A stretch of DNA of 42,624 nt. Source: Candidatus Rokuibacteriota bacterium (GTDB taxonomy: Bacteria; Methylomirabilota; Methylomirabilia; Rokubacteriales; CSP1-6). Shown here piece after piece: positions 7,531 to 38,908 of this stretch. The notes under the pieces are model-generated. The model ran no database searches. It saw nothing but the letters and a program-made list of their open reading frames with translations, and was not told where the DNA came from. The DNA is taken from NCBI GenBank assembly GCA_030647435.1, contig JAUSJX010000045.1, forward strand, positions 1 through 42,624, given 5' to 3'. Made by a program: the position numbers and the translations under genes. Position 1 is the stretch's first letter; every line of letters starts with the position of its first letter.

Positions 7531-7575
7531 TGGTGGGCCGTGGAGGACTCGAACCTCCGACCCGCTGATTAAGAG
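7531..7575 (-). repeat. tRNA-Lys(CTT) 3' half, attachment-site copy 1
   Basis: On the minus strand it reads from CTCTTAATCAGC (anticodon loop with CTT, then the 3' anticodon stem), through the variable loop and the T arm GGAGGTTCGAGTCCTCC, to the acceptor end CGGCCCACCA with an encoded CCA. The D arm and 5' half are absent to the right, so this is not a functional tRNA. The break at the anticodon loop is a common crossover position for tyrosine integrases using tRNA genes. Confidence 0.85.
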
Positions 7576-7931
7576 ACCAAACCCGGATCACACTCCGATG
7601 ATACTGGATGCGCTAAGCTCGCACCAACTTGAGCTTTGGCCTGAGGCATAGTGCCGCTGAGTGACCCTGTGTTCATCCCAATTGGGCAGCAATCCCACGC
7701 GCCTGGAGTTCCCTCCCCGGGGCGCTCAGGACCCTCGTCCCCAACAAACCGACTAACGGGCGATCGCGCATTCGGAAAGCTGAGATGGTTCATCTTGCGT
7801 TGTTGCGGGGGCCCGCAACGCTGAATGCTACACGGTGCCCACGACCTACTGGAATAATTCTTGATCTTAGCTGCTTGCGGCTTCAAAATCGCGCGCACCA
7901 GGTCGCTGAACACGGGTGAAGGGTGCTGCGC
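7576..7931. other. Gene-free stretch right of att copy 1
   Basis: No supportable gene. The 114-codon minus-strand frame here has no family resemblance. No integrase is found where one might be expected beside an attachment site. Confidence 0.5.
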
Positions 7932-8198
7932 CTACGAGGACTCTTCTCTCCTGATCTCGGCGATCTTACGGTCGCGATCATTCGCCAGCCTTTCCTTGTC
8001 GTGCCGTAGATCCTCGTTCAGCCGTTCGATCTCCTCGTGGGTACCGGCGTTGCGAAGCGCGGCTTGGTGGAGGATCTCGCGCTCGGCGACCTTCGCTTTG
8101 TAGAACTGGCGGGCCTCGTCGATGGCGGCTTTCTGCGCGTCGGTGAGTGGGCGATCATCGATGCTGGCCTCCGTGTCCTTCTGCCGGAGGCGTTCCAT
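7932..8198 (-). CDS. Small charged coiled-coil protein
   Basis: 88 residues from the first in-frame Met, highly charged and helical: TDAQKAAIDEARQFYKAKVA then EREILHQAALRNAGTHEEIE and a Lys/Arg/Glu-rich tail. This predicts a long helix or coiled coil. The frame stays open 51 bases further upstream, coding SDDGPKSAFELA directly before the Met, which looks like genuine protein, yet no ATG/GTG/TTG precedes it before the stop. So the natural start may be lost or non-canonical. Function unknown. Confidence 0.65.
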   Translation of the reverse strand: MERLRQKDTEASIDDRPLTDAQKAAIDEARQFYKAKVAEREILHQAALRNAGTHEEIERLNEDLRHDKERLANDRDRKIAEIRREESS

Positions 8199-8517
8199 CG
8201 CCAGCTCGAACGCGCTCTTCGGGCCGTCGTCGGAAATTAGCCCGTAGTGTAGCAGAGGCCCTCACCCGTTTGCCCTTGCCCATACCCGTCCAGATGGCTA
8301 CGCTCGGGCCGGGCTGATTTTCCGGCCGATTTTCCCTACGACCGCCATAAAAACCTTCCCTGACGTTCAGAATCGTCTTCTGTGCCCCAGGGACCCAAGA
8401 ACCGAAAAGAGGCAAGAATGAGTCAAAGTCGCCACTGCGTTTCTCAGACGAAAGCCGGTGAGCCGCGCGTGAGATCCGGTGGCTCGGCACAGGTCCTGGT
8501 CGCTACTTCTGCCGCAG
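8199..8517. other. Gene-free stretch before livF
   Basis: Contains the probable upstream coding extension of the coiled-coil gene (to about 8249) and then no recognisable gene. livF ends at its right border, so a terminator is expected here; none with a clear T-run was found. Confidence 0.4.
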
Positions 8518-9216
8518 CTAGAGTCCGAGGTAGCTTGCCCGCACCCCAGGGTCGGCCCTGAGTTCCGCGGCCGGGCCTTCCCTGACAACGCTCCCGTGCT
8601 CAAGAACATAGCAGCGCTGGGCCAACGTCAGCGCCAGCTCCGCGTTCTGCTCTGCCAGCAGGATGCTGATCCCCAGCTCATGAAGCTCCTTCAGCTTGCC
8701 GCGCAGCAGGTGGACCAGTCGTGGTGCCAGCCCGAAGGTAACCTCGTCCAGCAATAGCACCTTGGGTCCCCCCATCAAGGCCCGTCCGATCGCCACCATT
8801 TGCTGCTCTCCGCCACTCAAGGTCCTCGCCTGTTGCTTCGCCCGCTCCCGCAGCACTGGGAACATCTCGTACACCAGCGGCAATCGAGCCCGGAGCTCTC
8901 CCCACTGCACATACGCGCCCAACTTGAGATTGTCGAGTACCGAGGCCGTTCCCACGAGTTTCCGTCCTTCAGGCACGTGGATAATTCCTAGGCGGGCGAT
9001 CCTCCAGGGGTCGAGCCTTTCAACGCGCCGTCCGTTCAAGCTGACTCTCCCTGAGCTGATGGGTACCAGACCCGATATCGCTCGCAACAACGTGGTCTTG
9101 CCCGCTCCATTCGGGCCGATCATGGCCACGAACTCCCCTTCTCGCACGTTGACAGACACGCCTTCGACCCCATACGCCGCGCCGTACCGAACCGTGAGCG
9201 ACTCTATCTCAAGCAC
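8518..9216 (-). CDS. livF: Branched-chain-type ABC transporter ATPase LivF
   Basis: A 232-residue cytoplasmic ATPase that drives a Liv-type importer. I chose GTG 9216, which follows GGAGGGG at six bases and overlaps livG by eight bases; a TTG 15 bases earlier would include the ribosome-binding site. Walker A is GPNGAGKTTLL, then EGRKLVGTASVLDNL, ABC signature LSGGEQQMVAIGRAL and Walker B VLLLDEVTFGLAP, and H-loop region ISILLAEQNA. LivF proteins normally read DEPSLGLAP; here the Pro-Ser is Val-Thr, although the Asp-Glu pair is kept. Last gene of the livHMGF block. The substrate need not be an amino acid. Confidence 0.93.
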   Translation of the reverse strand: MLEIESLTVRYGAAYGVEGVSVNVREGEFVAMIGPNGAGKTTLLRAISGLVPISSGRVSLNGRRVERLDPWRIARLGIIHVPEGRKLVGTASVLDNLKLGAYVQWGELRARLPLVYEMFPVLRERAKQQARTLSGGEQQMVAIGRALMGGPKVLLLDEVTFGLAPRLVHLLRGKLKELHELGISILLAEQNAELALTLAQRCYVLEHGSVVREGPAAELRADPGVRASYLGL

Positions 9217-9934
9217 CCGTCGCCCCTCCAAGGTACGCTTCTCGCACTACTGGCAGCTCGATCACTTGGTCGAATTTGCCTTCGGCAATCTTCACGCCGA
9301 AATCCAGGACGATAACCTGCTCGGCCAGCCTCCTCAGTTCCCGGAGCACGTGCTCCACGATGACGACCGTCAATCCGCGGTTGATCAGATTCCGCAGAAG
9401 CCCGGAGATCTCACTCACCTCAGCATGACTAAGCCCGCTGAATGGTTCGTCCAACATCACCAAGCGGGGGTTCGTAGCTAACGCCCGGCTGATCTCCAAG
9501 CGCTTAAGGTCTCCGATCGGCAGGCTTCCCGCTCGCTGCCCTTCTTTGCCCGCCAGGCCGACAACAGTCAACACTTGAGTGATCCGATCCTCCAATGCGT
9601 CACCACGGCTCGTTCGGAGCAATGCGGCGGCTCTCACATTTTCGTACACGGATAGGCCACGAAAGACCCGGACAATCTGGAATGTCCGCGCGATTCCTCC
9701 GTCCACGATCTGGTACGGCTTGAGGTGGGTGATGTCTCGGCCATCGAATACCACGCGTCCCGAATCCGGCTTGATGAATCCGGTGATCAAGTTGAAGGTC
9801 GTGGTCTTCCCGGACCCATTCGGCCCCACAATGCCAAGAACCCGGCCTTCGTCCACCGAAAAGGAGAGATCCTTCACGGCCATCAATCCGCCGAATCGCT
9901 TTGTCAGTCCTCGAACCTCCAGGACGGTCGCCAT
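9209..9934 (-). CDS. livG: Branched-chain-type ABC transporter ATPase LivG
   Basis: 241 residues. ATG 9934 sits six bases after AGGAG, whereas the earlier in-frame ATG at 9940 directly abuts it. Motifs: Walker A GPNGSGKTTTFNLITG, signature variant LPIGDLKRLEISRALA, Walker B LVMLDEPFSGLSHAE, H-loop VVIVEHVLRELRRLAEQVIV. The signature LPIGD in place of LSGGQ/LSYGQ is a modest deviation. Pairs with LivF as the heterodimeric motor under the LivH/LivM permeases. Confidence 0.93.
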   Translation of the reverse strand: MATVLEVRGLTKRFGGLMAVKDLSFSVDEGRVLGIVGPNGSGKTTTFNLITGFIKPDSGRVVFDGRDITHLKPYQIVDGGIARTFQIVRVFRGLSVYENVRAAALLRTSRGDALEDRITQVLTVVGLAGKEGQRAGSLPIGDLKRLEISRALATNPRLVMLDEPFSGLSHAEVSEISGLLRNLINRGLTVVIVEHVLRELRRLAEQVIVLDFGVKIAEGKFDQVIELPVVREAYLGGATGA

Positions 9935-9943
9935 GGTCATCTC

Positions 9944-10963
9944 CTAGGTTTTTCTTACGACGGCCATCAGCCCACCCGGGAAAAACCGAAGCACGACGAT
10001 GATGATGGCCGCATAGATGAGCACACGCAGGTACGGCAACGCCTGGAGATACAGGTCCATCAGCGTGATGACGTACGCTCCCATCATCGCTCCCACGATT
10101 GACGACGCCCCCCCCAGCGACATCATGATCACCGGGAGGATCGAATAATGCAGGGAGAGCGTGGTCGGCCCGACAGACCCCATAATGTGGGTGAACAGGG
10201 TTCCGGCCAGGCCAGCGAACCCTCCGCTGATAACGAAGACCAGCACCTTATATTTCGTCGTGTTCACGCCGGACGCCTCGGCGCCGAACTCATCCTCCCT
10301 GACTGTTTTCAGGATGAGCCCGAGATCGCCTCGCGCCAGCCGCAGGACTACCAGGGTCGCCCCGAGCGTGACGAGGAGGACGATATAGAATTGTGCGTAG
10401 AAGGATCCCGACGCCAGCTGCGCAAATCCGGCGATGCCGTCATCACCGCCCAGGTAGCGGGGCGAGAGGTGAACGATATTGGCCGCGACTAGCGGGAACA
10501 CCAGGGTGACGACCGCGAGGTATGGCCCCTTGAGACGGAGACAGATGAAACCCACTCCTAGCGCGGCCACCAGTGACGCCGCCCACGCGACCCCCATAGA
10601 CGCTAGCAGCGGCACCCCTAGGTTGAGGCTCAAGAGCCCTGACACGTATCCGGCCCCGCCGAAAAATAGCGAATGCCCAAAGCTTATGAGTCCAGTGTAG
10701 CCCGCCAGCAGGTCGTAGCTAACCGCATAGATAACGAAAATGTTGGCGAACATGATGGTCCGCAATGTCCATTTATCTTCGACCACGAGCGGCAATGCCA
10801 GCTCGAGCAGGAAAAACAGCAAAACTATGAAGTATACCGCCCCCCGCCTCCCTAACTCCGACAAGGATCCCACAACCCGCTGGCCCTCCTTCGTTGGGGA
10901 TTTCCTGCGGACGGACGCCGCCTTGGCATCCAGCTCTTCGGATGACCCGATGACGTTCCGCAT
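9944..10963 (-). CDS. livM: Branched-chain-type ABC transporter permease LivM
   Basis: 339 residues from ATG 10963 with AAGGAG eight bases upstream. A ~40-residue charged N-terminal extension precedes about nine membrane helices, starting at AVYFIVLLFFLLELALPLVV. The family signature YDLLAGYTGLISFGHSLFFG and the EAA-like loop LKTVREDEFGAEASGVNTTK followed by YKVLVFVISGGFAGLAGTLF are clear. Forms the membrane channel with LivH. Confidence 0.93.
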   Translation of the reverse strand: MRNVIGSSEELDAKAASVRRKSPTKEGQRVVGSLSELGRRGAVYFIVLLFFLLELALPLVVEDKWTLRTIMFANIFVIYAVSYDLLAGYTGLISFGHSLFFGGAGYVSGLLSLNLGVPLLASMGVAWAASLVAALGVGFICLRLKGPYLAVVTLVFPLVAANIVHLSPRYLGGDDGIAGFAQLASGSFYAQFYIVLLVTLGATLVVLRLARGDLGLILKTVREDEFGAEASGVNTTKYKVLVFVISGGFAGLAGTLFTHIMGSVGPTTLSLHYSILPVIMMSLGGASSIVGAMMGAYVITLMDLYLQALPYLRVLIYAAIIIVVLRFFPGGLMAVVRKT

Positions 10964-11016
10964 CAAGCGTTCTCCTTACCCGCAGCACGCCGAGATCATA
11001 CGCCAATGAGCCCGCG

Positions 11017-11916
11017 TCACGTCGGTTGCTCCTCCCATCCCTTCACGCCGAAGAGGCCGGTCGGCTTGAACACCAATACGAGCAGGATGATGATCAGCCC
11101 CACTGAACGCTTTACGATCCCGCCGGACGGGACGTACGCCGTGAATGCCGCCTCGCTGATCCCCAAGATCAGGCCCGCGGGCAGGCACGCCCAGATATTT
11201 CCCATGCCACCGAGCACCATCACAGCAAAGGCGATCACCAACAGATCGAGCCACATGTAAGGATGGGGCGGGTAACTGGAACCGAGGAGCAGACTCGCGA
11301 TCGCGGCGACCACCGCTGCCAACGAGGCCGCCACGAGCCAGATCAGGCGGACATTCCCCCCGGCCAGTTGCATCGCCTCCGGCTGTTCGGCCGTGGCGCG
11401 GATGGCGAGCCCGAGTCGTGTCCGGGTCAGGAACAGCCAAAGCAATGCCATCACGCTGATGGTGACTGCTGCCACCAAAAGCTTCGCGTTGACCACCCAG
11501 ATCCCAAATATGGGCATGGCGCCTTTCAGCACCGTCGGCATATACACAGGTGCGGCTCCCTCTTTGAAAATCAGGAGCTCCTGCACGACCAGCGCCACGG
11601 CAAGGGTTGACACCAGGACCGAAGTCGGTTCCTTCCGAATGGGCAGAATCAAAAAGTAGTGGGTGGCAAGCGCGACGACCACCGCCGCAAAGGCAGCAAT
11701 CACAAACACCAGCCATATCGGGACCGCCGGCACCAGAACTGGGATCAGCGCCACTACCATGTAGGCGGCAATCGCGTAATAGCTCGCATAGACCAGATCG
11801 AATACCTTGGCCACGCCGAGGATGAGGGACATGCCCACAGCCATGAGACAGTAGCCCAACCCCAGCAGCATCCCGTTCACGATTACGTTCACCTTTGTCT
11901 CCGGCGGCGGGGGCAT
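11017..11916 (-). CDS. livH: Branched-chain-type ABC transporter permease LivH
   Basis: 299 residues with about eight membrane helices. Starts MPPPPETKVNVIVNGMLLGL; an internal GTG start about nine codons in is possible because the Pro-rich lead is unusual. Typical LivH features are GLGYCLMAVGMSLILGVAKV and RATAEQPEAMQLAGGNVRLI (the EAA loop), then the C-terminal IIILLVLVFKPTGLFG. Lies 53 bases before livM in the same operon. Confidence 0.92.
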   Translation of the reverse strand: MPPPPETKVNVIVNGMLLGLGYCLMAVGMSLILGVAKVFDLVYASYYAIAAYMVVALIPVLVPAVPIWLVFVIAAFAAVVVALATHYFLILPIRKEPTSVLVSTLAVALVVQELLIFKEGAAPVYMPTVLKGAMPIFGIWVVNAKLLVAAVTISVMALLWLFLTRTRLGLAIRATAEQPEAMQLAGGNVRLIWLVAASLAAVVAAIASLLLGSSYPPHPYMWLDLLVIAFAVMVLGGMGNIWACLPAGLILGISEAAFTAYVPSGGIVKRSVGLIIILLVLVFKPTGLFGVKGWEEQPT

Positions 11917-12103
11917 AGCCGTGATGGGCTCGGCGGGCGAGGTGGCACCGCGGTTCGCATCGTCCCTATGTGCGCGTCATATAGTGCGACTAGTGCGACG
12001 CTATCGCGCCAACTGTTGTGCCTCAAGGCCCGCCTCCCACTCACGGCCGTGCCCCCGTTCGCGTAGGTCGCCCCACGAGACTCGCTCCGGTCCCCGTGGC
12101 GCG

Positions 12104-13402: not shown

Positions 13403-13506
13403 GTCTACCCTCCTTTTTTTGGATCCGTTCCTGGTCATCGATGCCGTCTGGCGTTGCCACACCCTTCGCGCGACACCTTCTTCACCTCCCCGACTTCGGC
13501 ACTGCC

Positions 13507-14433: not shown

Positions 14434-14561
14434 GGTCTCCTCCTTCACACACGCTCGTTCGCGGTGCCTGTCCCGTTGCTACACCCGTCTCCCTCTTCGC
14501 CGCTGTCTCCCGCCGACGTGTCCCGGCGAGGTGCCCACCATCTGACTGCCCTCCGATCCCC

Positions 14562-15332: not shown

Positions 15333-15360
15333 ACAACGCTCCCTCGAAGTGAGTTTCGTG

Positions 15361-16887: not shown

Positions 16888-16926
16888 CCTCTTCCCCCTA
16901 TTTCAACAGCGTCCGTCCAAACGGCC

Positions 16927-17706: not shown

Positions 17707-17960
17707 TGGCTGCCTCTGTCTCCGATGTGCACGCAGGCCCGACACTCTTCGCCTCGCCATAGACCGGTCGGGACATGTTCGGCAATGCAGTCCAGCATGG
17801 CCCCGGGCTTCGCCGAGGCCAGGATGAACACGAAGTGCTCAACTGCTACGTCCACGAACGCCATGAGACCATCGACGCACTCCGTCGGAGTGCCGCAGAC
17901 GACGTAGTGGGGGTCCGAGGTGTGCGGCCACCGATGTCCCTCACGTGTGAGTCCCCTTTA
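17703..17960 (-). pseudogene. LLM-class flavin-dependent oxidoreductase, C-terminal remnant
   Basis: The minus-strand frame from about 17960 reads GHRWPHTSDPHYVVCGTPTE then CVDGLMAFVDVAVEHFVFIL and ends in TGA at 17703. The segment VVCGTP.EC....FVD.GVEHFVF is typical of the C-terminal part of F420/FMN-dependent luciferase-like monooxygenases. About 250 N-terminal residues are missing, and an in-frame TAA lies just upstream. The intact ATGA overlap with the SDR start shows the gene once led this operon. Confidence 0.6.
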
Positions 17961-26931: not shown

Positions 26932-26970
26932 CTTTACCGAAAGCTAAGCACCCAATCATCGGAGGTAGGT

Positions 26971-28854: not shown

Positions 28855-29018
28855 AGGACTGGGTCCGCCTGCGCTTCCGGCTGGGCTTGTCCGATTCGAC
28901 CTCCGGCATCATCACCGCCGCGGGGCGCCTGACCGAGGCCGGGATGGACGCCGACGAGGCGGTGGAGGCGGTGCTGCGGATCGCGAGGGAAGTGAAGGCG
29001 GAGGCGCGCGGTGGCTGA
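28842..29018 (+). CDS. Small ORF bridging the DUF262 and GIY-YIG genes
   Basis: An open frame overlaps the end of the DUF262 gene and reads NNLEDWVRLRFRLGLSDSTS then GIITAAGRLTEAGMDADEAV and EAVLRIAREVKAEARGG, stopping at 29018. It overlaps the GTG start of the next gene by eight bases. It looks like a real small helical protein, but there is no ATG or GTG before residue 34, so a TTG (in GLSDS) or a coupled non-standard start is needed. Function unknown. Confidence 0.5.
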   Translation, partial: VNNLEDWVRLRFRLGLSDSTSGIITAAGRLTEAGMDADEAVEAVLRIAREVKAEARGG

Positions 29019-29715: not shown

Positions 29716-29852
29716 CCTTCACTGTCACAACTGAAGGAACGGCGCCCAGGTTGCCCCGAGCGCTGCCACCGTGCCGTGCCGAGCCAAGCCATCCGTGCGG
29801 CAGTCAATCGCCTAGACGACCAGAGTGATGGCAAATTGGTGGCAAAGACGGC

Positions 29853-29886
29853 ATCGGCCACCCCCGATGTGCCGGAAGTGGCCGAT
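29853..29886 (-). terminator. Terminator hairpin of tRNA-Lys fragment, copy 2
   Basis: Same nine-pair stem ATCGGCCAC/GTGGCCGAT as at copy 1. The following run is GCCGTCTTTGCC, so the T-tract is degraded relative to copy 1. Confidence 0.55.
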
Positions 29887-29891
29887 TCAAG

Positions 29892-29936
29892 TGGTGGGCC
29901 GTGGAGGACTCGAACCTCCGACCCGCTGATTAAGAG
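29892..29936 (-). repeat. tRNA-Lys(CTT) 3' half, attachment-site copy 2
   Basis: Identical to copy 1 over 45 bases; to the right the next bases TC would continue the anticodon stem of an intact tRNA, then unrelated sequence follows. No D arm present. Confidence 0.85.
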
Positions 29937-30325
29937 TCCACCTCAGGCGTTCCTCAAACCACCACAAATGGATGTAACTCGCGATGAAATCGAGGAACCA
30001 CTATGAAAGTGTATCGGCGTGCATCGCCGTACATCGGGCTGCGTCGGAACCGCTCTGGAACCAAGTTACCTAAGCCTGGCCATCCTATTCCGTGAGGGGA
30101 ATGCCCATGATCCCGCTCACGACCTCTTCATCGATCCCATTCGTCGTCCGCCATCGGGACAACCCTGCCGTCGACGCCATCACGCCGACGTCCACGCCCG
30201 CTTCACGCCCCAAATCTACCACGTTATGCCGGCGCACGACGATCCCCGGCAGTGCAGCCTCGCAAATCAGCCCAAGTCGAGCCCATCGCATCGAGAGGCG
30301 AGGAAGGCGCGGACCTGGGGGCAGC
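29937..30325. other. Gene-poor stretch after att copy 2
   Basis: A 30-codon frame at 30003-30095 (MKVYRRASPYIGLRRNRSGT...) has a GAGGAA site upstream but no recognised family. A minus-strand frame over 30085-30300 shows some protein-like character (VDVGVMASTAGLSRWRTTNG), but I could not place it. Otherwise nothing is supported. Confidence 0.4.
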
Positions 30326-30457
30326 GGCCGGCCATCCAAGTTGACCGAGCAGTGGGCCGAAAGATACATAGTAGCAATCCGAGCAGGAAATTTTCGGACG
30401 ACAGCGGCAAGACTTACGGGGCAGCGTCCAAGCGGCACGATCAGGCTCCGTCGGCCG
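30326..30457 (+). pseudogene. HTH-type gene fragment (terminase small subunit-like)
   Basis: The frame reads GRPSKLTEQWAERYIVAIRA then GNFRTTAARLTG, very like the N-terminal helix-turn-helix of phage terminase small-subunit-type or transposase-associated proteins (GRPSKLT..VAERI..AIRAGN....AAR.AG). It has no start of its own and runs in the same frame into an IS256 fragment, so it is a junction of two broken genes. Confidence 0.4.
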
Positions 30458-30601
30458 CATGTGCGGGGCCTGGAGAAGCGATTCGTGAGCCGCGTCCTGC
30501 CCCTGTTCAAGCGGCGCACGAACGAGTTCGGACGCCTGTTCCCGGAGCTCTACCTGCAGGGGGATGTGTACCAGGCAATAGTGCCACCCGGCGCGCGGTA
30601 G
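30458..30601 (+). pseudogene. IS256-family transposase fragment
   Basis: LEKRFVSRVLPLFKRRTNEF then GRLFPELYLQGD is close to the conserved region of mutator-type (IS256) transposases (..SRVLPLFKRRT.EVG.LLPELYLHGLA). Similarity ends at YLQGD and the frame stops at 30601. About 45 of ~400 residues remain. Confidence 0.6.
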
Positions 30602-30943
30602 CTCCCCTACCCCGGTCGCGTCCGTGCTCCTTCTCCTCCGAAGCCTAAGTGGGCCGAGAAGAAACCCCAGCTGTCATACTCACTGCTTCCGATTAAAGGG
30701 ACACCGTCACGCAAGGATGCGTGGGATGAAGCTCAATCATCGAGCGCGGCAGTGCGGTGTTGGAGCGTGCACCGAAGGTGTGACCGCGCAGCTGATACCC
30801 TGCCGAGCGGGCGGCGGCTTCGGTTGCCCCAGCGCCCCTGCCCCGCGCAGCCCATGGGGATGATCATCTAGGTCTTGGACCTAAGACACGATTGGCCAGG
30901 CAAGTCGCCTCGGCGAGCCTGGATAAGCCATTTCTCTTGCAAG
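30602..30943. other. Gene-free stretch before the AbiE promoter
   Basis: No gene supported. GC content falls sharply near 30900, where the AbiE control region begins. Confidence 0.4.
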
Positions 30944-31006
30944 TTTTGGCAATATTTACACTATGTTAGATAGATTATAGTCTTAGAGTGTTCATATTTG
31001 ACTAAT
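30944..31006 (+). promoter_or_regulatory. AT-rich promoter region of abiEi-abiEii
   Basis: The most AT-rich part of the window. TTTACA at about 30954 and TATAGT 15 bases on, or TTGGCA with TAGATA, could serve as -35/-10 boxes; spacing is not ideal, so the exact boxes are not fixed. Confidence 0.4.
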
Positions 31007-31023
31007 GTTCACGTTTCGTGTAC
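31007..31023 (+). promoter_or_regulatory. AbiE operator copy 1
   Basis: GTTCACGTTTCGTGTAC, an imperfect palindrome around CACG-TTT-CGTG. It matches the site at 31071-31087 at 14 of 17 positions. AbiEi antitoxins are known to bind paired inverted repeats upstream of their genes. Confidence 0.6.
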
Positions 31024-31070
31024 AGTCAAAGGGACTGAACGAAGTGCTCGTGCGTTCATAATTACGACCA

Positions 31071-31087
31071 GTTCACGTAACGTGGAC
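31071..31087 (+). promoter_or_regulatory. AbiE operator copy 2
   Basis: GTTCACGTAACGTGGAC, palindromic core CACGTAACGTG. Starts 64 bases after copy 1, about six helical turns, allowing cooperative binding. It ends 30 bases before the abiEi start. Confidence 0.6.
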
Positions 31088-31117
31088 ACAGCATTAGGAT
31101 GAACACGGAGATTTGCC

Positions 31118-32188
31118 ATGAACAAGACGACGCGACTACACGATCGAGAAGTTAGACTCTTGGATGACGCGCTTGCCGCACTAACGCGCAATACTGGACT
31201 TACCGCGGCGATCGTTACACGCGAGCCACTGCGTGCGACGGGCGCCCGCCCTGACGCGGAAATCCAAATCGAAGCGAACGGAAAGCGATTCCAGTTCTTT
31301 GCCGAAATCAAGACGATCGATCGGGCAGTCGCGCTAGCTACGGCCAAGAACCAACTCGCACCGCACGGCAACAGAGGCGTGCTCGTCGCACCCTACATTA
31401 CGGCCGAGCTCGCGAATCACTGCCGTAACAAACTCGACCTTCACTTCATTGACACTGCCGGCAACGCTTACTTGCGGGCACCAGGCCTTTACGTTTTCGT
31501 CCGTGGCGAGCGCCCCCCGAACCTCCGAGAAATGGGAATGGGCACTCGCGGCGGGGGCACTGCAACCGCCCTGCGAGTCGTATTCGCGCTGCTCTGCAAT
31601 CCAGAACTTCTCAACGCGCCGTACCGAGAAATCGTTGCAGCGGCAGGTGTCGCGCTGGGTGCTGTTGGCTGGGTCTTTTTCGACCTCCAGGGCCGCGGCT
31701 ACATCACCGGTGGCTTGCGGAAGCACAACCGCCGACTGCTAGAGCCTGCCCGCCTGCTCGACGAATGGGTTACCAATTTCCCGATTAAGCTGCGCCCGAA
31801 GCTCAATCCACGCCGATTCCAGGCCCCCGACCCCGGCTGGTGGCGACAGGCGCGCCTCGAAGCTGGGGCGCGTTGGGGAGGCGAAATCGCTGCGGCAAAA
31901 CTAACTGACGATCTCAAACCAGCGATCTGCACTATCTACCTGCATCCAGAGAACGCCCGCGAGGCTCTTCCCGCACTCGTGAAGCAACACCGCCTGCGTG
32001 CTGACCCGCACGGAAACGTCGAGATCCTGGATGCCTTCTGGAACTTCCAACCTAAAGGAACTCAACCCGATCTCGTGCCGCCACTCCTTGTCTATGCTGA
32101 CCTCATGGCCACGTTCGACCCGCGCAACCTGCAAGTCGCAAGACAGATCCGCGGAGAATACATCGACCATGCTCTCCGTCGCGCCTGA
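31118..32188 (+). CDS. abiEi: Type IV toxin-antitoxin system AbiEi family antitoxin
   Basis: 356 residues; ATG 31118 with GGAG nine bases upstream. AbiEi proteins repress their own promoter and counter the AbiEii nucleotidyltransferase. The sequence shows the C-terminal antitoxin layout of the AbiEi_2-like (PF09952) group: FFAEIKTIDRAVALATAKNQ, GVLVAPYITAELANHCRNKL, DLHFIDTAGNAYLRAPGLYV, then a winged-helix-like segment FALLCNPELLNAPYREIVAA AGVALGAVGWVF. It ends ...VYADLMATFDPRNLQVARQI. Overlaps the toxin gene by 20 bases. Lower GC than the flanks suggests transfer. Confidence 0.85.
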   Translation: MNKTTRLHDREVRLLDDALAALTRNTGLTAAIVTREPLRATGARPDAEIQIEANGKRFQFFAEIKTIDRAVALATAKNQLAPHGNRGVLVAPYITAELANHCRNKLDLHFIDTAGNAYLRAPGLYVFVRGERPPNLREMGMGTRGGGTATALRVVFALLCNPELLNAPYREIVAAAGVALGAVGWVFFDLQGRGYITGGLRKHNRRLLEPARLLDEWVTNFPIKLRPKLNPRRFQAPDPGWWRQARLEAGARWGGEIAAAKLTDDLKPAICTIYLHPENAREALPALVKQHRLRADPHGNVEILDAFWNFQPKGTQPDLVPPLLVYADLMATFDPRNLQVARQIRGEYIDHALRRA

Positions 32189-33026
32189 GCGCCCCGTCGC
32201 TCCGATGACGCTTGCGGTTCTGACGCTCGTGGATCGCATCGCACGAGAGCTCGCGCTCGATTACTTCGTGACGGGTGCGATGGCGCGGGACCTCCTTCTA
32301 TACGGTGTCTTCGGCCTCGACACTGGCCGGGCGACGCTGGACGTGGACCTTGCTGTAGCGGTCGACAGCTGGAAGCAATTCGAGGCGGTCAAGGCATGCC
32401 TTCTCGAGACAGGAGTATTTACTACTGCCGGGGATGTGATGCACAGGCTCTTCCATCGCGGAAGCATAGGGCAAAGAGGCTATCCCCTCGACCTCCTTCC
32501 CTTCGGTGGCATAGAGCAACATCCGAACCAGATCGCCTGGCCCCCAGACCTATCCATCATCATGAATGTGGCTGGCTACCGCGAAGCGCTTGCCGCGGCG
32601 GTGGAGGTCGAGGTCCATCCGGGCCTCATCGTACACGTGGCATCGTTGGCGGGCCTTGCCATCTTGAAGTTATTCGCCTGGGCCGATCGCGGGGCTGCCA
32701 ATCCCAAGGACGCTCTCGATTTTGCCGTTCTATTGGGCCAGTACAGCGCAGCCGGCAACGAGGATCGACTCTTCACCGAAGAGCTTGGGCTCTTGAAGGA
32801 CCTCGCCTACAACGTGGATCTCGCCGGCCCGCGGCTCCTCGGCAAAGATGCGGCTCGTGTAGCCACACGCGAGACGAGAAACAAACTCCTCGCACTACTT
32901 GACGATGCAGAACGCCTGGACCGGCTCGTTACAGACATGGCAAGAGTCTTCCGGGGCGCCGAGGATCCTATCGCCAAGGCCGAGGCCTCGGTCGTCCAGT
33001 TCAAAACGGGATTGGGGGAGATTTGA
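32169..33026 (+). CDS. abiEii: Nucleotidyltransferase AbiEii/AbiGii family toxin
   Basis: 285 residues from ATG 32169, inside the end of abiEi. The polymerase-beta-type nucleotidyltransferase motif is complete: VTGAMARDLLLYGVFG (residues 34-49), then GRATLDVDLAVAV with metal-binding Asp58 and Asp60. A later acidic/Lys part, VASLAGLAILKLFAWADRGA then ANPKDALDFAVLL, matches the K..A...R...KD..D pattern of AbiEii/MenT-type toxins, which modify tRNA or other targets with NTPs. Intact, with no sign of decay. Confidence 0.85.
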   Translation: MLSVAPERPVAPMTLAVLTLVDRIARELALDYFVTGAMARDLLLYGVFGLDTGRATLDVDLAVAVDSWKQFEAVKACLLETGVFTTAGDVMHRLFHRGSIGQRGYPLDLLPFGGIEQHPNQIAWPPDLSIIMNVAGYREALAAAVEVEVHPGLIVHVASLAGLAILKLFAWADRGAANPKDALDFAVLLGQYSAAGNEDRLFTEELGLLKDLAYNVDLAGPRLLGKDAARVATRETRNKLLALLDDAERLDRLVTDMARVFRGAEDPIAKAEASVVQFKTGLGEI

Positions 33027-33174
33027 CCCTCCATCATGGCGCAGGTTCTTTGTAGATTCGAACCCTGACTCTTGCGCGATGACCTCACGTGATCAGCTCG
33101 CACGGAAAGGGCGACTGCTATAGCTTCGACGAGCTGAGGAAGGCCAGGCGATGAGGGGCAAGCCGGAAAAGCGA

Positions 33175-33209
33175 AATCGGGCACTCCGGGGATCCCGAAG
33201 TGCCCGATT
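33175..33209 (-). terminator. Terminator hairpin of tRNA-Lys fragment, copy 3
   Basis: An eleven-pair stem AATCGGGCACT/AGTGCCCGATT with a 13-base loop; on the minus strand it is followed by TCGCTTTTCC. A different sequence from copies 1-2 but in the same place, so this att copy came from a different element or locus. Confidence 0.6.
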
Positions 33210-33213
33210 CGAT

Positions 33214-33258
33214 TGGTGGGCCGTGGAGGACTCGAACCTCCGACCCGCTGAATAAGAG
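33214..33258 (-). repeat. tRNA-Lys(CTT) 3' half, attachment-site copy 3
   Basis: Same 45 bases as copies 1 and 2 except one change in the anticodon loop (CTGAATAAGAG on the plus strand instead of CTGATTAAGAG). No 5' tRNA half adjoins. Confidence 0.85.
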
Positions 33259-33497
33259 ACCAGTTACAGACGAAACAGACCTCAGCTTACTGAGACAATT
33301 GCCTAGAAATACAGGCTTCCCGAAACTCAGGAGTTGAGGCTTTTCTCACTACCTCGGCAGTAGTTCTCGGACAGAAGCCGGACATCTGTAGTCGGTCGGT
33401 CAGGCCAGCAGGGCCCGGAGATTCCCGCCGTCCCAGGACGGCCCCGACGCTGCCCTCACAATGGAAGCCAGCTCTCGGGCGCAGATGCCCGGCTAGC

Positions 33498-33640
33498 TCA
33501 CCTGCTCGTCAACGCGGCAATCCTGGGGCCGAACACCATCTTGAACCTAAGGAGCCGATCGATACCCCAGTCTCGGATTTCCTTCAACGTCTCCGGATCG
33601 TCCTCAATGCTACCCGGCCGATAGGTAGCAATGCGTGAGG
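33498..33640 (-). pseudogene. DUF4268-like C-terminal remnant
   Basis: The minus-strand frame reads SRIATYRPGSIEDDPETLKE then IRDWGIDRLLRFKMVFGPRI and stops at 33498. The ending IR.W....LL.FK.VFGPRI is typical of the DUF4268 domain, found on restriction-endonuclease-like proteins. Upstream coding is lost at the IS91 fragment near 33650. Tentative. Confidence 0.4.
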
Positions 33641-33656
33641 CGCTTCGATCGTCGAG

Positions 33657-34056
33657 ACGCTGAAGACGGTCTGGCGCGATGGCACCTCGCATCTACTTTT
33701 CGAGCCAATCGAGTTCATGGAGAAGCTCGCGGCGATCATCCCCCGCCCCGCGGTCAACCTGGTCGTGTATCACGGCGTTCTCGCCCCGCATGCGCGCTGG
33801 CGCGCGCACGTCGTCCGCCACGGCCGCCCGGCCCCCGGACGTCCATGCGCGCGAACGCGAGGCCAGCCCCTGCGCCGCCGGCACCCCAGGTGCGTGGACC
33901 TGGGCCGCCCTGATGCGCCGCGTGTTCGATCTCGACGTCCTCGCCTGCCCACGCTGTGGCGGCCGCCTGCGGCGCATCGCCTCCGTGCAGGATCCCCTCG
34001 ATCGTCTCATCCACGAACGCCTCTGGATGGTTGATGAGCTTCTTCATGGCAGGCTC
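33657..34056 (+). pseudogene. IS91-family transposase, C-terminal fragment with frameshift
   Basis: LKTVWRDGTSHLLFEPIEFM then EKLAAIIPRPAVNLVVYHGV and LAPHARWR is the IS91/IS801 transposase (Y2 HUH class) signature. After about 33830 the match continues in another frame: GAWTWAALMRRVFDLDVLAC then PRCGGRLRRIASVQDP. The shift between frames and the missing N-terminal catalytic part make it non-functional. The end at about 34056 is not the normal IS91 end. Confidence 0.7.
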
Positions 34057-34096
34057 CTCAAGGAAATGGGTGTCGTGCCGCCCAGCGTTGAATGCG

Positions 34097-34984
34097 CTAC
34101 AGCAGGCCGGCGTTCTTCAATGCCTGCTTGATCGGGCCCGCCTGGCGCTCGGAGGTTGCCGGCATCGGCGGCCGGGGGACGCCGGCAGGCCGCCCCAGCA
34201 GCTCCATGCAATGCTTCACGTTCGCCGGCAAGTTGTCGTGGAAGATGGCGTTCCAGATCGGGAGCAGCTTCTCGTGGAGCCGGAGCGCCTCCAGGTAATT
34301 TCCGGCCTTGGCGGCGTTCCAGAGCTGGACGCACAGCGTCGGGACGGCCGTGAGGATAGCGGCAATCGCCCCGTGGGCCCCCAGGACGAAGGAGGGATAC
34401 AGCAGGGCGTCCACGGCGGACATGATCCGCGCCCGGTTGCCTACCAGCAGCAGCAGGTCTGCCAGCATCTTCATGTCCCCGGCGCTCTGCTTGACCCCGA
34501 CGACGCCGTCCACCGACGTGAGGATCCGGGCGAGAAGCTGGGGTGAGAGGTAGGCCCACGGGACCACGTTGTAGATGAGGACGGGGAGCCCGGTCTTGCC
34601 GGCGATGGCGTCGAAGTTCTTGAGCATCGCGTCATCGTCCGGCCGGAACAGGTAGTGGGGCGGTGTGACCTGCAAGGCGGCGACGCCCAAGTCCTTGACC
34701 GCACGCCCCCGCTCGATAGCGGATTCGGTGCTGTCGGTGATGATGCCGGTGATGAGCGGGACCCGCCCCCGTACTTCTTCGGCCACGATGGCGGTGATCC
34801 GCCGGACCTCGTCCGTGGTCAGGGTGTGCCCCTCTCCCGTGCTGCCGGTCACGGCCAGACCATGGACCTTTGCCGTCTCCACCATGTATCGCGTGTCGGC
34901 GCGCAGGGCTTGTTCGTCAATGGTGTTGTCCGGCCGGAAGGGTGTGGTCACCGGCGGGACGATCCCGTAGATGTGCTCGTACAT
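34097..34984 (-). CDS. DHDPS/N-acetylneuraminate lyase-family aldolase
   Basis: 295 residues; ATG follows AAAGGAG at six bases. Full DHDPS fold: VTGSTGEGHTLTTDEVRRI (the GTTGE motif kept as GSTGE), LPVLIYNVVPWAY (catalytic Tyr) and VVGVKQSAGDMKML (Schiff-base Lys). It ends in the C-terminal helices of a catabolic aldolase rather than DapA. Downstream of tctCBA, so its substrate is probably the carboxylic acid that the transporter brings in, or a product of it. Confidence 0.92.
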   Translation of the reverse strand: MYEHIYGIVPPVTTPFRPDNTIDEQALRADTRYMVETAKVHGLAVTGSTGEGHTLTTDEVRRITAIVAEEVRGRVPLITGIITDSTESAIERGRAVKDLGVAALQVTPPHYLFRPDDDAMLKNFDAIAGKTGLPVLIYNVVPWAYLSPQLLARILTSVDGVVGVKQSAGDMKMLADLLLLVGNRARIMSAVDALLYPSFVLGAHGAIAAILTAVPTLCVQLWNAAKAGNYLEALRLHEKLLPIWNAIFHDNLPANVKHCMELLGRPAGVPRPPMPATSERQAGPIKQALKNAGLL

Positions 34985-35107
34985 GCAGGCTCCTTTCGTG
35001 CGCTGCGGGCGAGTGAATCGGGCACCGCCTTCCTCTCCCCGATCAACCGTTCCAACACCCAGTTGTCAACGCTATTCCACCTTCGATAATCCGGACGGCC
35101 GGATCCG

Positions 35108-36622
35108 CTACTCCTCCAGCTTCGCCAGTTGCGCCGCCTCCAGCTTGAGGGCTTGGCGCTGGCGACGCACCGCCACGAAGGTCGTGAAGGCCGCCAGGAC
35201 CAGGATCACCACGGTGATCGGGCGCGTCAGGAAGATCGTGGGATCCCCCCGGGACATGGTCATGGCCCGGCGATAGTTCGACTCCATCATCGCGCCCAGG
35301 ATCTGGGCCAGCACCATGGGGGCCACCGGGTACTCGTAGCGAAGCATGAGGTACCCGAGGAAGCCGAAGATGACGCAGGTCGCCACGTCGTAGAAGACGT
35401 TGTTGATGGCGTAGGAGCCCACCATGCAAGTCATGAAGATCAGGGGAGTCAGGAACTTCCGGTCGAGATTGATCACCTGGGCGAAGAACCGGGCAAAGAT
35501 GAGACCGAGGATCACGAAGGTGACATTTGCCGCGATCATCCCGGCGAAGATCTGGTGCACGACCTCCGGGTGACTCTGGAAGAGCATGGGGCCGGGCTGG
35601 AGGTTATGGATGGTGAGCGCGCCCATGAGCACCGCCGTTGCCGCGTCTCCGGGAATGCCCAGGGTGATCATGGGCAGAACGTCCCCGCCCGTGCTGGCGT
35701 TCTCGCCGCATTGCGCGGCCGCCACCCCGGCGGGCTCCCCGGTCCCGAAGCGCTCCGGGTGCTTCGAGGCCCGCTTGGTCTCGGCGTAGCTCAGGAAGGC
35801 GGACGTATCGGCGCCGATCGCCGGCGTGATGCCCACGATCAGCCCGATGGGGCAGGCGCGCACGTACGCGGGGATGCATTCCTTGAGATCCTTCAGCGTC
35901 GGAAGGATGTTTTTGAGGACCGCGCTGACTCGTGGGGCGGTGAGAATGATCTCCACTTGGCGGAAGCCCTCGGACAGGGCGAACAGGCCGATGAGCATGG
36001 GGACAAAGGAGAGGCCTCCGGTCAGCTCGGCGAACCCGAAGGTGAAGCGCTGGAATCCCCCCATCGGGTCCAGGCCGACCATCGCCAGGAGCAGACCCAG
36101 CAAGCCCGAGATGACCCCCTTGACCGGTGAGCGGCCCGACAGGGTAATGGTCACCGACAGCCCGAAGACCGCCAGTGCGAAGTACTCGGGTGCCGAGAAG
36201 CGGAGCGCGAAGCTGGCCAGGATCGGGGCGAAGAAGGCGAGGCAGATGGCGGTGAACGTTCCGCCCACCCCCGAAGAGATCGTCGCGATACCGATGGCCT
36301 TCCCGGCCAGCCCCTTCTGCGCCATCGGGTAGCCGTCGAACACGGTGGCGGCCGCTGCCGGCGTGCCCGGCGTCTTGATCAGGATCGAGGCGATCCCGCC
36401 CCCGTAGATGGCCCCCGTGTAGATCCCCAGCAGCATGACGATGCCCGTGATGGGCGTCATGCCGAACGTGAAGGGCACGAGGATGGCGATCCCCATCGTG
36501 GCGGTCAACCCCGGGATGGCCCCGATGATGATGCCGAAGAACGAGCCCAGAATTAAGGCCACCAGATTGTAGCCGGAGAGGACCGTCCCAAAGCCCTGCA
36601 GCAGCAGACCCAGATCTACCAT
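35108..36622 (-). CDS. tctA: Tripartite tricarboxylate transporter large permease TctA
   Basis: 504 residues with about ten to twelve membrane helices. Opens LGLLLQGFGTVLSGYNLVAL then ILGSFFGIIIGAIPGLTATM (the GxxxGxxPGLT motif) and has the second conserved block RFGTGEPAGVAAAQCGENAS then TGGDVLPMITLGIPGDAATA. This is the transport subunit of a secondary carboxylate importer driven by an ion gradient. 22 bases separate it from tctB. Confidence 0.95.
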   Translation of the reverse strand: MVDLGLLLQGFGTVLSGYNLVALILGSFFGIIIGAIPGLTATMGIAILVPFTFGMTPITGIVMLLGIYTGAIYGGGIASILIKTPGTPAAAATVFDGYPMAQKGLAGKAIGIATISSGVGGTFTAICLAFFAPILASFALRFSAPEYFALAVFGLSVTITLSGRSPVKGVISGLLGLLLAMVGLDPMGGFQRFTFGFAELTGGLSFVPMLIGLFALSEGFRQVEIILTAPRVSAVLKNILPTLKDLKECIPAYVRACPIGLIVGITPAIGADTSAFLSYAETKRASKHPERFGTGEPAGVAAAQCGENASTGGDVLPMITLGIPGDAATAVLMGALTIHNLQPGPMLFQSHPEVVHQIFAGMIAANVTFVILGLIFARFFAQVINLDRKFLTPLIFMTCMVGSYAINNVFYDVATCVIFGFLGYLMLRYEYPVAPMVLAQILGAMMESNYRRAMTMSRGDPTIFLTRPITVVILVLAAFTTFVAVRRQRQALKLEAAQLAKLEE

Positions 36623-36644
36623 GCGGCCGACTCGTTGCCTCCCG

Positions 36645-37106
36645 CTAGCGGAACAAACCGCGCGGGAGCGGCACGTTGAGGGTTCGATCGAAGAGCAGAT
36701 ACGTCATCACCGGGACCACCAGAGCGAAGAGGAGCAGCCGCACCCACCGCCGCTCGCCCAGCACCAGAACGAAGCCGAACAGGTATGGGGCAGTGGCCGT
36801 GATGAAGCCGATGCGCTCCATGAAGATCACGTACAGGCCGGTCAAGACGGCCACCCAGAGCACCCGGTTGCGATCCGCCCCTTCCACCCGGCCAGGCAGT
36901 GTCAGCGACTGCCCCCGGAGCGCTCGAATGAGCAACAGAGATGCCGCCCCCAGCAGGCAGACGGCGACCCCGCGGGGAATCCAGGCCGGACTCCCCATGT
37001 CCGGCAGGATGGGCCACTGCCCGGATTCATAGAAGACGTACGCGCTGATCGGGAAGATCACCAGCGCCGAGAGGATATCAATCTTCTTCATGGACACGTG
37101 GGGCAT
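36645..37106 (-). CDS. tctB: Tripartite tricarboxylate transporter small permease TctB
   Basis: 153 residues; ATG 37106 has AAAGGGAG about seven bases upstream. Four predicted helices: IDILSALVIFPISAYVFYES, GVAVCLLGAASLLLIRAL, VLWVAVLTGLYVIFMERIGF and LLLFALVVPVMTYLLFDRTL. The end LNVPLPRGLF is the usual TctB tail. TctB proteins are poorly conserved, so the assignment leans on TM layout and context. Confidence 0.9.
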   Translation of the reverse strand: MPHVSMKKIDILSALVIFPISAYVFYESGQWPILPDMGSPAWIPRGVAVCLLGAASLLLIRALRGQSLTLPGRVEGADRNRVLWVAVLTGLYVIFMERIGFITATAPYLFGFVLVLGERRWVRLLLFALVVPVMTYLLFDRTLNVPLPRGLFR

Positions 37107-37140
37107 ACCGTCTCCCTTTCCGGTCAAGCAAGCATGAGAC

Positions 37141-37164
37141 GCCCCGCGGCAACTGCCGCGGGGC
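37141..37164 (-). promoter_or_regulatory. Hairpin between tctC and tctB
   Basis: A perfect ten-pair stem GCCCCGCGGC/GCCGCGGGGC with an AACT loop and no T-run. It lies in the 88-base gap between the receptor gene and tctB. Such a hairpin can protect the upstream mRNA or partly terminate, giving more TctC than permease. The stem is seen; the effect is inferred. Confidence 0.6.
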
Positions 37165-37194
37165 GCTCGCAACCCCCCACAGGGAAATCCGAAA

Positions 37195-38166
37195 CTACTT
37201 CTTCTTCAGCAGGCCCAGCGCTTCCAGGGTCGGCTCCAGGCTCTTCTCCATTCCGATGAGGAATTCCTGGAACTTCTCGTGAGCCAGGTAGGTCCGCGGC
37301 AGGGTCACCTTGTCCATCAGCGCGATGTACTCCGGGTCCTCCGCCGCCTTCTGGAACCCGTCGCGCAGGACCTTCAGGACCTCGGGCGGCGTGCCCTTCG
37401 TCGTGCCCAGGCCGCGCCAGTCGTAGATGTAGCCTTCGAGGGGGTAGCCGGCCTCGGCCAGGGTCGGGACGTCCGGGAAGAACGGGTTGCGGGTGGGCGT
37501 GACGGCCGCCAGGATCCTCACCTGCTTCGTCTGGTAGAACTGCAGTACCTCGTCCATGCCGCTGGCGCACATGCTGATGTGGCCGCCCACCAAGGCGGTC
37601 CGGGTCGGGGCTGCGCCGTCAAAGGGGACGAAGGTGAACTTCAGGCCGAACTTCTGGGCGATGGCCGCGCCAGCGAGATGCCAGGCGCCGGCCGGCCCGG
37701 AATGCCCTATCGTGACCACGCCGGGGTTCGCCTTGGCGTACTCGACGAGTTCCTTCATGCTGCGGAACTGAGAGTCCGCCTTGACCGAAAGACCTGCCGG
37801 GCTCCGGTTGAGCAGCGCGATGAGGTCGAAGTCCCGGTAGGACAGCTCGGACTGGCCGAGCAGCCGGTAGGTGCTGAGGTTGAAGGTGATGACCCCCACC
37901 GTGTATCCGTCCGGCTTGGCCTTGACCACCGAGTCCATCCCCACCACGCCGGTGCCGCCGACGCGGTTGACGACGTTGATGTTGACCCCGAAGTACTTCT
38001 TGCCGTTCTTCACCAGCGTGCGCGCCAGGGTGTCGGTGCCACCACCCGCTGACCACGGCACCACCAGGGTGATGTCGCGCTCGGGGAAGGCCGCCTTCGC
38101 CGGCGCGGGCACGAGCAGCGCCACGGCGAGCACGGCCGCCAGCACCAACCCAACCTTTCGCATCAT
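37195..38166 (-). CDS. tctC: Tripartite tricarboxylate transporter substrate-binding protein TctC (Bug family)
   Basis: 323 residues; ATG 38166 after AAAGGAGGC. A signal peptide MMRKVGLVLAAVLAVALLVP then APAKA precedes the mature start AFPERDITLVVPWSAGGGTD, the Bug family opening that binds the carboxylate. Also NVVNRVGGTGVVGMDSVVKA, the TIGHSGPAGAWHLAGAAIAQ segment and the WRGLGTTKGTPPEVLKVLRD end region. It delivers its ligand to TctAB. First gene of the operon. Confidence 0.95.
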   Translation of the reverse strand: MMRKVGLVLAAVLAVALLVPAPAKAAFPERDITLVVPWSAGGGTDTLARTLVKNGKKYFGVNINVVNRVGGTGVVGMDSVVKAKPDGYTVGVITFNLSTYRLLGQSELSYRDFDLIALLNRSPAGLSVKADSQFRSMKELVEYAKANPGVVTIGHSGPAGAWHLAGAAIAQKFGLKFTFVPFDGAAPTRTALVGGHISMCASGMDEVLQFYQTKQVRILAAVTPTRNPFFPDVPTLAEAGYPLEGYIYDWRGLGTTKGTPPEVLKVLRDGFQKAAEDPEYIALMDKVTLPRTYLAHEKFQEFLIGMEKSLEPTLEALGLLKKK

Positions 38167-38820
38167 GACTGCCTCCTTTCGAGGTTCGAGTTGCCTCTCA
38201 GGTCCGCCGGCAGCATCCGGACGGGCGGACCATTCCTCCGCGCTGGCACCCCCCACGCTGCCAGGAATCGCTGCTCCACTCTGACACATCCCCCTTCGCT
38301 CTGGTTACGCCCTCCTCTGGTTTGTCTGCGACTGAGAACCATCTCAGGTTCATCGGTTCATCCGGACAATGCACGAAGGGATTCATGAATTCTCCGGAAC
38401 AAATGACCAATTCCTCAAATCCCAATGGCGGAACAGAGCCTCACGCTCTGTCACGGTCCGACACGCAGACAGGCCAGCCAACATTAGCACCCTCCGGCGG
38501 CGCGGTCGCCCCGTCCGTGGGCCCCATCACCGTGACATACGGTGCCATACCCGGACACCAGCTGGCGTTGGTCCTGATGTGAGGAAGGTAGAGGACGCCC
38601 AAGTTCCGAACAGCGACTCGCCATGCGTTGTTCTCCAGACGCCACGCTGACGTTTTACAAGGGATCAGACGGGTAGATCTGGGATGCTCGGGACGGCTGT
38701 GAAGTGAGGGAACTGTCGCACTGTATCGCGACTGTAGATTCGCTCCTGATCGGGCTGTTCCGTGAAAGCTGGAGAAGGAGCTTAAGGACGGCAGAGCTGT
38801 CAGCGTGACGTCAGCAGGCC
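38167..38820. other. Region upstream of tctC up to att copy 4
   Basis: About 650 bases without a supportable gene. It should hold the tctC promoter, and it contains copy B of the dispersed repeat. Short frames on both strands have no family resemblance. Confidence 0.5.
38503..38575 (+). repeat. Dispersed repeat, copy B
   Basis: GGTCGCCCC-(G)TCCGTGGGCCCC-ATCACCGTGACATA and CCCGGACACCAGC, aligned block by block with copies A (7217) and C (40552); closest to C in the first half. Lies 290 bases left of att copy 4. Confidence 0.45.
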
Positions 38821-38846
38821 GCGGGCACCTCAGTCGAGGTGCCCGC
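38821..38846 (-). terminator. Hairpin beside tRNA-Lys fragment, copy 4
   Basis: Perfect eleven-pair stem GCGGGCACCTC/GAGGTGCCCGC with a four-base loop, at the position where copies 1-3 have terminators. No T-run follows on the minus strand, so termination would be weak. Confidence 0.45.
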
Positions 38847-38863
38847 TAACCTACTGATTGAAG

Positions 38864-38908
38864 TGGTGGGCCGTGGAGGACTCGAACCTCCGACCCGCTG
38901 ATTAAGAG
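38864..38908 (-). repeat. tRNA-Lys(CTT) 3' half, attachment-site copy 4
   Basis: Identical to copies 1 and 2. The tyrosine integrase starts 150 bases to its right, so this is the attachment site of the element with the working integrase. Confidence 0.88.

Follow-up and report, generated by a model that had tools for sequence, protein, structure and literature searches.

The window analysed here is a stretch of 42,624 bases that makes up the entire contig C45 of a genome of 5.79 Mb in 176 contigs, which is probably metagenome-assembled and whose host is placed among Rokubacteria. It holds four displaced 3' halves of a tRNA-Lys(CTT) gene on the minus strand, namely fragment 1 at 7531–7575, fragment 2 at 29892–29938, fragment 3 at 33214–33258 and fragment 4 at 38864–38910, and these form the borders between five units (fragment 1 separates U1 on its left from U2 on its right, fragment 2 U2 from U3, fragment 3 U3 from U4 and fragment 4 U4 from U5). 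An initial annotation had described four such copies on one strand, identical or one base apart, and we found the same: their spacing is 22361, 3322 and 5650 nt, three of them are exact and fragment 3 carries a single mismatch near the anticodon. The annotation was also right in calling them 3' halves that break at the anticodon loop and lack a 5' half, as the matches cover tRNA positions 32–76 in fragments 1 and 3 and 30–76 in fragments 2 and 4. The anticodon starts at tRNA position 34; the halves run from the anticodon loop to CCA, and all four breaks lie on the 5' side of this loop or at most 2 bases from there. Neither a 5' tRNA half nor an intact tRNA was found within the window, and chance is excluded for a match of 45 bases.

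The intact tRNA-Lys(CTT) gene lies on another contig (C41:12024–12099) inside a His-Arg-Lys tRNA cluster. It is related to the copies, as had been proposed: three of them agree with its 3' half in every base. Searching the whole genome with a 33-base repeat pattern (at most 3 mismatches) gave six places, which are the four copies in the window and the C41 gene, all exact, and a further displaced half with 2 mismatches at C51:6721–6753. The count of four copies thus holds for the window, but the array contains five displaced halves. On the tRNA 3' side of each half in the window we noticed by eye an inverted repeat resembling a terminator, on the minus strand in all cases: those behind fragment 1 (7492–7525) and fragment 2 (29853–29886) share one sequence, and those behind fragment 3 (33176–33208) and fragment 4 (38821–38846) have different ones. 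Fragments 1 and 2 have flanking sequences that agree at 97% across 104 bases.

The units carry very different cargo, and the labels given in the initial annotation hold, with genes for integrase, HEPN_Swt1, TctABC with DHDPS and AbiEi/AbiEii. The right part of U1 (1–7530) encodes an SOD, an acyl-CoA dehydrogenase, a DUF362 protein and an alpha/beta hydrolase, with the remainder of the unit and the fifth half on C51. U2 (7576–29891, 22.3 kb) is the unit that had been described as catabolism plus defence, and this is what we observed: a branched-chain-type ABC transporter, an AMP-binding enzyme, acyl-CoA genes and 2-oxoacid:ferredoxin oxidoreductase-type genes stand together with TetR, WYL, NERD-helicase, GmrSD_N and HNH genes. 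U3 (29939–33213, 3.3 kb) contains the AbiEi/AbiEii pair and U4 (33259–38863, 5.6 kb) contains TctA, TctB, TctC and a DHDPS-family protein. The GC content differs by unit between 0.60 and 0.68, compared to 0.70 in the 11.8 kb preceding the intact tRNA. A hidden Markov model (HMM) built from the integrases at hand and run on open frames of at least 80 aa found no integrase in U1–U4, and library scans covering part of the predicted proteins of these units showed no transfer genes. The same HMM found a single integrase in the window, C41 and C51 together, and it adjoins fragment 4, in agreement with the remark that only the last copy stands beside one.

This tyrosine integrase (39059–40405, plus strand; Phage_integrase and Arm-DNA-bind_3) lies at the distal end of U5. 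It gives a full-domain Pfam match and contains RRQEL, HDLR and a following Y, which we take to be the catalytic motifs. Next to it on the minus strand is the cargo gene for an HEPN_Swt1 protein (40837–42063), and at the contig end an open frame runs off the sequence (42283–42624, plus strand) that has a near-copy at the end of contig C88. The frame matched nothing in Pfam or NCBIfam and is perhaps the N-terminus of an insertion sequence (IS) transposase.

We observed two exact overlaps that place the window in a larger region. The left end of C51 overlaps the left end of the window by 75 bases; in this orientation the fifth half shares the strand of the other four and lies about 6.7 kb to the left of the window. 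C41 continues into contig C91 through an overlap of 141 bases. The far end of C91 is an IS256-family transposase and fits a repeat-caused gap before the right end of the window. We infer the join of C91 to this end, as end overlaps were found neither between the window's right end and C41 or C51 nor between the right end of C91 and the window, C88 or C51. The C41 gene most likely belongs beyond the right edge, where the intact gene had been expected. U5 would then consist of C41 after the tRNA (34.9 kb), C91 (12.7 kb past the overlap), the gap and window positions 42624–38911. Its cargo on C41 comprises a DUF3631/DUF3854 protein, an Eco57I-type methylase and helicase cluster, a DprA-like protein, SSB, Rad52 and PD-(D/E)XK. 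An AAA_13 protein is encoded on C91 (L232, 2287–4557), a type of protein that includes some anticodon nucleases. Pfam scans covered 28 of the approximately 40 proteins predicted for U5, namely 20 of the 30 encoded on C41 beyond the tRNA, 5 of 7 on C91 and 3 of 3 in the window, and showed neither relaxase nor type IV secretion genes, a 1758-aa protein lying outside the scan.

Inspection of the flanks of the tRNA cores led us to define four classes of paired 7-bp repeats, here called arms: A (TGTAGAC), B (TGCTACC), C (TGGTTCC) and D (GCTGACG). The class-A pair TGTAGAC-N4-TGTAGAC on the minus strand at 39029–39046, the distal (X) arm of U5, has its partner at C41:12146–12163. GTGTAGACGCCATGTAGAC lies just past the inverted repeat of the intact tRNA, 47 nt after the tRNA itself, and ATGTAGACGCTGTGTAGAC lies in the same direction between fragment 4 and the integrase. 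The class-A pair occurs at 2 places in its own genome and at 7 places across 57 genomes of the family, compared to none for a reversed control. Six of the seven are within 350 nt of a tRNA-Lys(CTT) 3' half, and the seventh adjoins a relative of the integrase in G053. From their sequence and placement the two class-A pairs look like the two arms of one phage-type attachment site (attP), and would therefore delimit one element of about 51 kb reaching from the tRNA to fragment 4. Across the inferred join over the IS gap, U5 is bounded on either side by directly repeated copies of the 3' end of the tRNA, one of which belongs to the intact tRNA, and on sequence grounds arm-type sites flank the core to its left and right. 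By linking the C41 tRNA to the integrase end of the window, the class-A pairs favour the earlier suggestion of serial integration at a single tRNA-Lys gene.

The other classes are found at the ends of the older units, always on the minus strand: a class-D pair GCTGACGTCACGCTGACA with 1 mismatch (38798–38815) as tRNA-proximal (Y) arm of U4, a class-C pair TGGTTCCAGAGCGGTTCC with 1 mismatch (30046–30063) as X arm of U3, a degenerate class-B pair with 3 mismatches (29827–29844) as Y arm of U2 and a single class-B half-site TGCTACC (7477–7483) as Y arm of U1. Counting pairs with 0–1 mismatch, 5 of the 10 unit ends of the array have one (U1 distal, class B; U3 distal, class C; U4 proximal, class D; U5 both, class A). 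For U1–U4 this means that arms are clear at 3 of 8 ends (U1-X, U3-X, U4-Y), degenerate at 2 (U1-Y, U2-Y) and absent at 3 (U2-X, U3-Y, U4-X), and the cores are retained at every border. Scanning 40 cores in total (24 intact tRNAs and 16 halves), we found a pair with 0–1 mismatch at 15. Most tRNA-proximal arms follow the core at a distance of 46–49 nt and most distal ones precede it by 125–136 nt, with exceptions at +36, +58, beyond +200 and –56. Class-B pairs were found at 28 places in 20 of the 57 genomes (reversed control 0); 17 of these have a tRNA-Lys, Thr or Met 3' half at no more than 350 nt, or 19 if two beside intact tRNA-Lys(TTT) are included, and around the remaining places no such core was seen. 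Since four arm classes occur at the unit ends, this tRNA-Lys site was probably a target of several integrases that differ in arm specificity, as far as arm function can be read from such repeats. Together with the tRNA cores the paired arms point to integration of the phage type rather than to an integron-like process. We had also considered the latter, with hairpin-bearing cassettes, and dropped it because most intact tRNAs of the relatives likewise precede an inverted repeat (judged by eye), for which a terminator is the simpler explanation. A class-D pair was also seen 54 nt before an intact tRNA-Pro(TGG) in two genera (L166, L161), where the motif may not be an element arm.

Two of the older units retain traces of an integrase gene. 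The tRNA-proximal flanks of fragments 1 and 2 encode the last approximately 40 residues of an integrase different from that of U5 and like that of G004, a class-B integrase that abuts an intact tRNA-Lys(CTT) of its own, with the reading frame extending into this tRNA. In U1 this tail (7432–7485, plus strand) contains an in-frame stop and in U2 (29794–29937, plus strand) it runs into fragment 2; in both the rest of the gene is absent. A search of 60 genomes of the order with an alignment of such tails, which included the two from the window, gave 25 matches in 18 genomes. We set 15 loci aside by hand because they were full length or nearly so (L179, L182, L186, L193, L194, L203), truncated at the edge of a contig (L185, L188, L191, L192), frameshifted (L181), duplicate (L202) or without the tail or match (L195, L196, L201). 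Taking the alignment starts as break points, 9 of the 10 hand-picked remnants that were kept begin at or after residue 322 of 444 (P ~2e-6 under a uniform expectation). One case, G004:C52, is an internal deletion keeping the 5' part, and without it the count is 8 of 9 (P 1e-5); adding a frameshifted copy from G015 gives 9 of 11 (P 1e-5), and other choices give P from 1e-5 to 5e-5. Near two of the ten (G047:C40, G032:C311) no tRNA core was seen. We treat the clustering of integrase breaks at the 3' end as a lead.

The same layout recurs in relatives. Of the 57 family genomes, the present one among them, at least 14 contain displaced tRNA-Lys(CTT) halves, some of the matches being only 87–92% identical. 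Four relatives (G048, G005, G015 and G007) carry the intact gene on the same contig and strand as a displaced half (partial in G007, positions 34–70), at a distance of 1.4–7 kb, and the HMM search found no integrase between the two. The half in G003 abuts two genes, presumably for topoisomerase VI subunits, whose relatives sit downstream of the tRNA in G006, G007 and G039. Halves of tRNA-Lys(TTT), Thr and Met were also found beside class-B arms. A contig search with the U5 integrase gave two loci. The relative in G055 (73%) is equally placed and adjoins a displaced half, and beside that in G053 no tRNA half was found.

Other observations concern tRNA genes and halves in the relatives. In G036:C132 (L221, 6937–9960) 3' halves of tRNA-Lys(TTT) and tRNA-Thr lie 1 kb apart on the same strand with a class-B pair, and a long integrase frame stands 1 kb further beside an intact tRNA-Asp. 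In G037:C94 (L223, 667–6319) an intact tRNA-Lys(TTT) is accompanied by its own displaced half 5.5 kb off with a truncated integrase between them, which on its sequence is the same pattern at another tRNA. One Phd/ParE-type pair (Pfam assignment made on L081) follows a tRNA-Lys 3' half at short distance in each of three genera (L081 10508–11157; L080 9114–9709 and L082 10507–11141, both flipped). The window gene at 6719–7111 beside fragment 1 has a 95% relative in another species of the same genus (L087, G023:C100, 3211–3527), on a contig which also carries a displaced tRNA-Lys half.

We consider it very probable that the region grew by tandem accretion at tRNA-Lys(CTT), with units resembling cis-mobilizable elements (CIMEs), and it seems that no fewer than five blocks of foreign DNA entered the same tRNA gene in succession. 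A tyrosine integrase would cut near the anticodon loop, and the attP would bring a tRNA 3' half and its own hairpin. Each newcomer would thereby restore the tRNA and displace the old 3' half, together with everything behind it, by one step. U5 with the only integrase found would be the head, with U1–U4 stacked behind it as integrase-less units, of which U1 and U2 would retain the integrase tail alone beside the core. We infer the order of events from the arrangement, which from the head would read intact tRNA-Lys (C41), U5, fragment 4, U4, fragment 3, U3, fragment 2, U2, fragment 1, U1, fragment 5.

Several observations weigh against the accretion array. Fragments 1 and 2 have 89 exact bases in common, more than the 75-base contig overlap on the left, and therefore a misassembly is possible there. 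A contig spanning from the right end of the window to C91 is absent, and a copy of the terminal open frame, 97% alike in the final 300 bases, also stands at the end of C88, so that the IS gap could pair otherwise. No arm pair with 0–1 mismatch was found at 25 of the 40 cores, two of which have too little flank, or at 5 of the 10 unit ends of the array, and 11 of the 28 class-B places lie outside 350 nt of a core. The classes were fixed post hoc. Class C was scanned around cores only, and class D, with 27 places of which 6 are near a core and 4 matches for the reversed control, is too weak to serve as a genome-wide marker and was dropped as such. Finally, the AbiE pair of U3 is present elsewhere (80–85% identity in G054, G042 and G041, 69% in G034) without a tRNA core in 3–5 kb around the matches; a wider stretch of G054 contains an intact tRNA-Pro about 7.6 kb away. 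The AbiE pair therefore moves also alone, and the idea of a dedicated tRNA cassette for this block of about 2 kb is weakened. Of U3 and U4, the two units compared with relatives, only the U3 AbiE pair shows the same genes without the fragments, a finding that the initial annotation had named as speaking against its proposal. The AbiE block (30989–33048) begins at the identical base in the G054 and G042 matches, at unrelated places, as if it were mobile as a unit.

The integrase-less units could instead be non-autonomous cassettes moved in trans by co-resident integrases, with cores and arms kept and, in some cases, with the cut-off 3' tail of an integrase gene as tRNA-proximal border. This explanation, which we regard as rather unlikely, draws on the absence of a tyrosine recombinase from all 8 fully bounded units to which the HMM was applied (U1–U4 and those of G048, G005, G015 and G007) and on the nature of several small ones, which carry toxin–antitoxin, defence or conflict genes: Phd/ParE in 1.4 kb (G015), AbiE in 3.3 kb (U3), a TOTE primase-helicase in 4.8 kb (G048) and PP2C with kinase/VWA matches below the Pfam cut-off in 3.4 kb (G007). 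The Phd/ParE block is moreover located 240–300 nt behind the tRNA-Lys 3' half in three genera with 88–90% DNA identity, and most class-B integrase remnants begin near the 3' end (9 of 10). However, random decay with a retained tail looks alike and the remnant cases were hand-chosen. Further points against it are the in-frame stop and single half-site of U1, the degenerate pair of U2 and the armless ends U2-X, U3-Y and U4-X. An extended form of the explanation would be a system of Rokubacteria in which minimal integrase-less cassettes have a tRNA 3' half and paired 7-bp arms as their sole mobility parts, some being derived from an integrase gene of which nothing is left but the 3' tail, the part shared with its own attachment site. 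A resident integrase reading the arm class would move them in trans, and the tRNA-Lys locus would serve as an open-ended array for defence and metabolic genes. We think this form unlikely.

We likewise think it unlikely that the entire stack was already assembled when it arrived, in one or a few events, instead of growing unit by unit. Conjugative transfer of tandems of a CIME and an integrative and conjugative element (ICE) has been observed according to the available part of one report (PMC5704250), and fragments 1 and 2 with their similar flanks could be a related pair, but the four arm classes, the differing hairpins and the GC content differing by unit argue against this. The other family genomes, which are fragmented, hold at most 2 copies of the 33-base pattern, and among them no relative matching U3 and U4 together was found. 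That the fragments have nothing to do with integration and arose by retroposition or segmental duplication of tRNA pieces, or through faulty assembly, is extremely improbable. The contig ends are repeats and the window copies share exact repeats of 38–89 bases, which speaks for it, but the break is always at the anticodon loop, it is always the 3' half on one strand with a hairpin after it, the arms where present stand at near-fixed distances, and the same layout occurs in other genera.

Tandem accretion at a tRNA is an already known kind of genome growth with close published precedents, and the array is unusually legible here. CIMEs have lost integration and transfer genes and kept the attachment sites attL and attR, and tandems are explained by a new element integrating at the attachment (att) site of a decayed one (PMC5704250, as far as available). 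The present array resembles this accretion in its shared att ends, in the older units without integration genes and in the integrase element at the target gene; it differs in the number of halves, five from a single tRNA, and in the four arm classes found among the unit ends, with no transfer genes in the scanned part. In Dehalococcoides, tandem islands at ssrA, 15 of them without an integration module, are likewise bounded by repeats of the end of one RNA gene, and the att repeat is embedded in the integrase gene (PMC3146451, as far as available); there a serine recombinase and tmRNA are involved, compared to a tyrosine recombinase and tRNA-Lys here, and arm sites are not mentioned in the accessible part. 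A further likeness is found in Ca. Methylopumilus, where the terminal 20 bp of tRNA-Lys(ctt) recur and mark an additive island of 330 bp to 42 kb with varying content (PMC10872708, as far as available). The copies are 45–47 bp here, the phylum is another one, and the accessible part of that report does not mention an anatomy of arm sites and integrase tails. Tycheposons, as described there, share the tRNA at the border, the tyrosine recombinase and the variable cargo, but start with the tRNA gene, whereas here tandem displaced 3' halves are found. A limited literature search gave, judging by title, no published work on Rokubacteria genomic islands with such an array. Arm classes and tail-only integrases were not met in the accessible parts of the literature compared, which is no claim that they are unpublished.

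The region makes the stepwise growth of a genomic island visible in a little-studied phylum, with attachment sites that can be read. Paired arms help to match element ends, even across contigs, and provide a simple sequence test of whether integrase-less units could still be moved. Movement in trans, if true, would help to explain the spread of tiny toxin–antitoxin and defence cassettes without a recombinase of their own. Within U4 we further noticed a stretch of about 350 bp (33649–33995), over which two open frames matched no Pfam family. It is repeated in its own genome (C155, C2, C7 and C19; 78–92%) and is also present, whole or partial, in a number of relatives.

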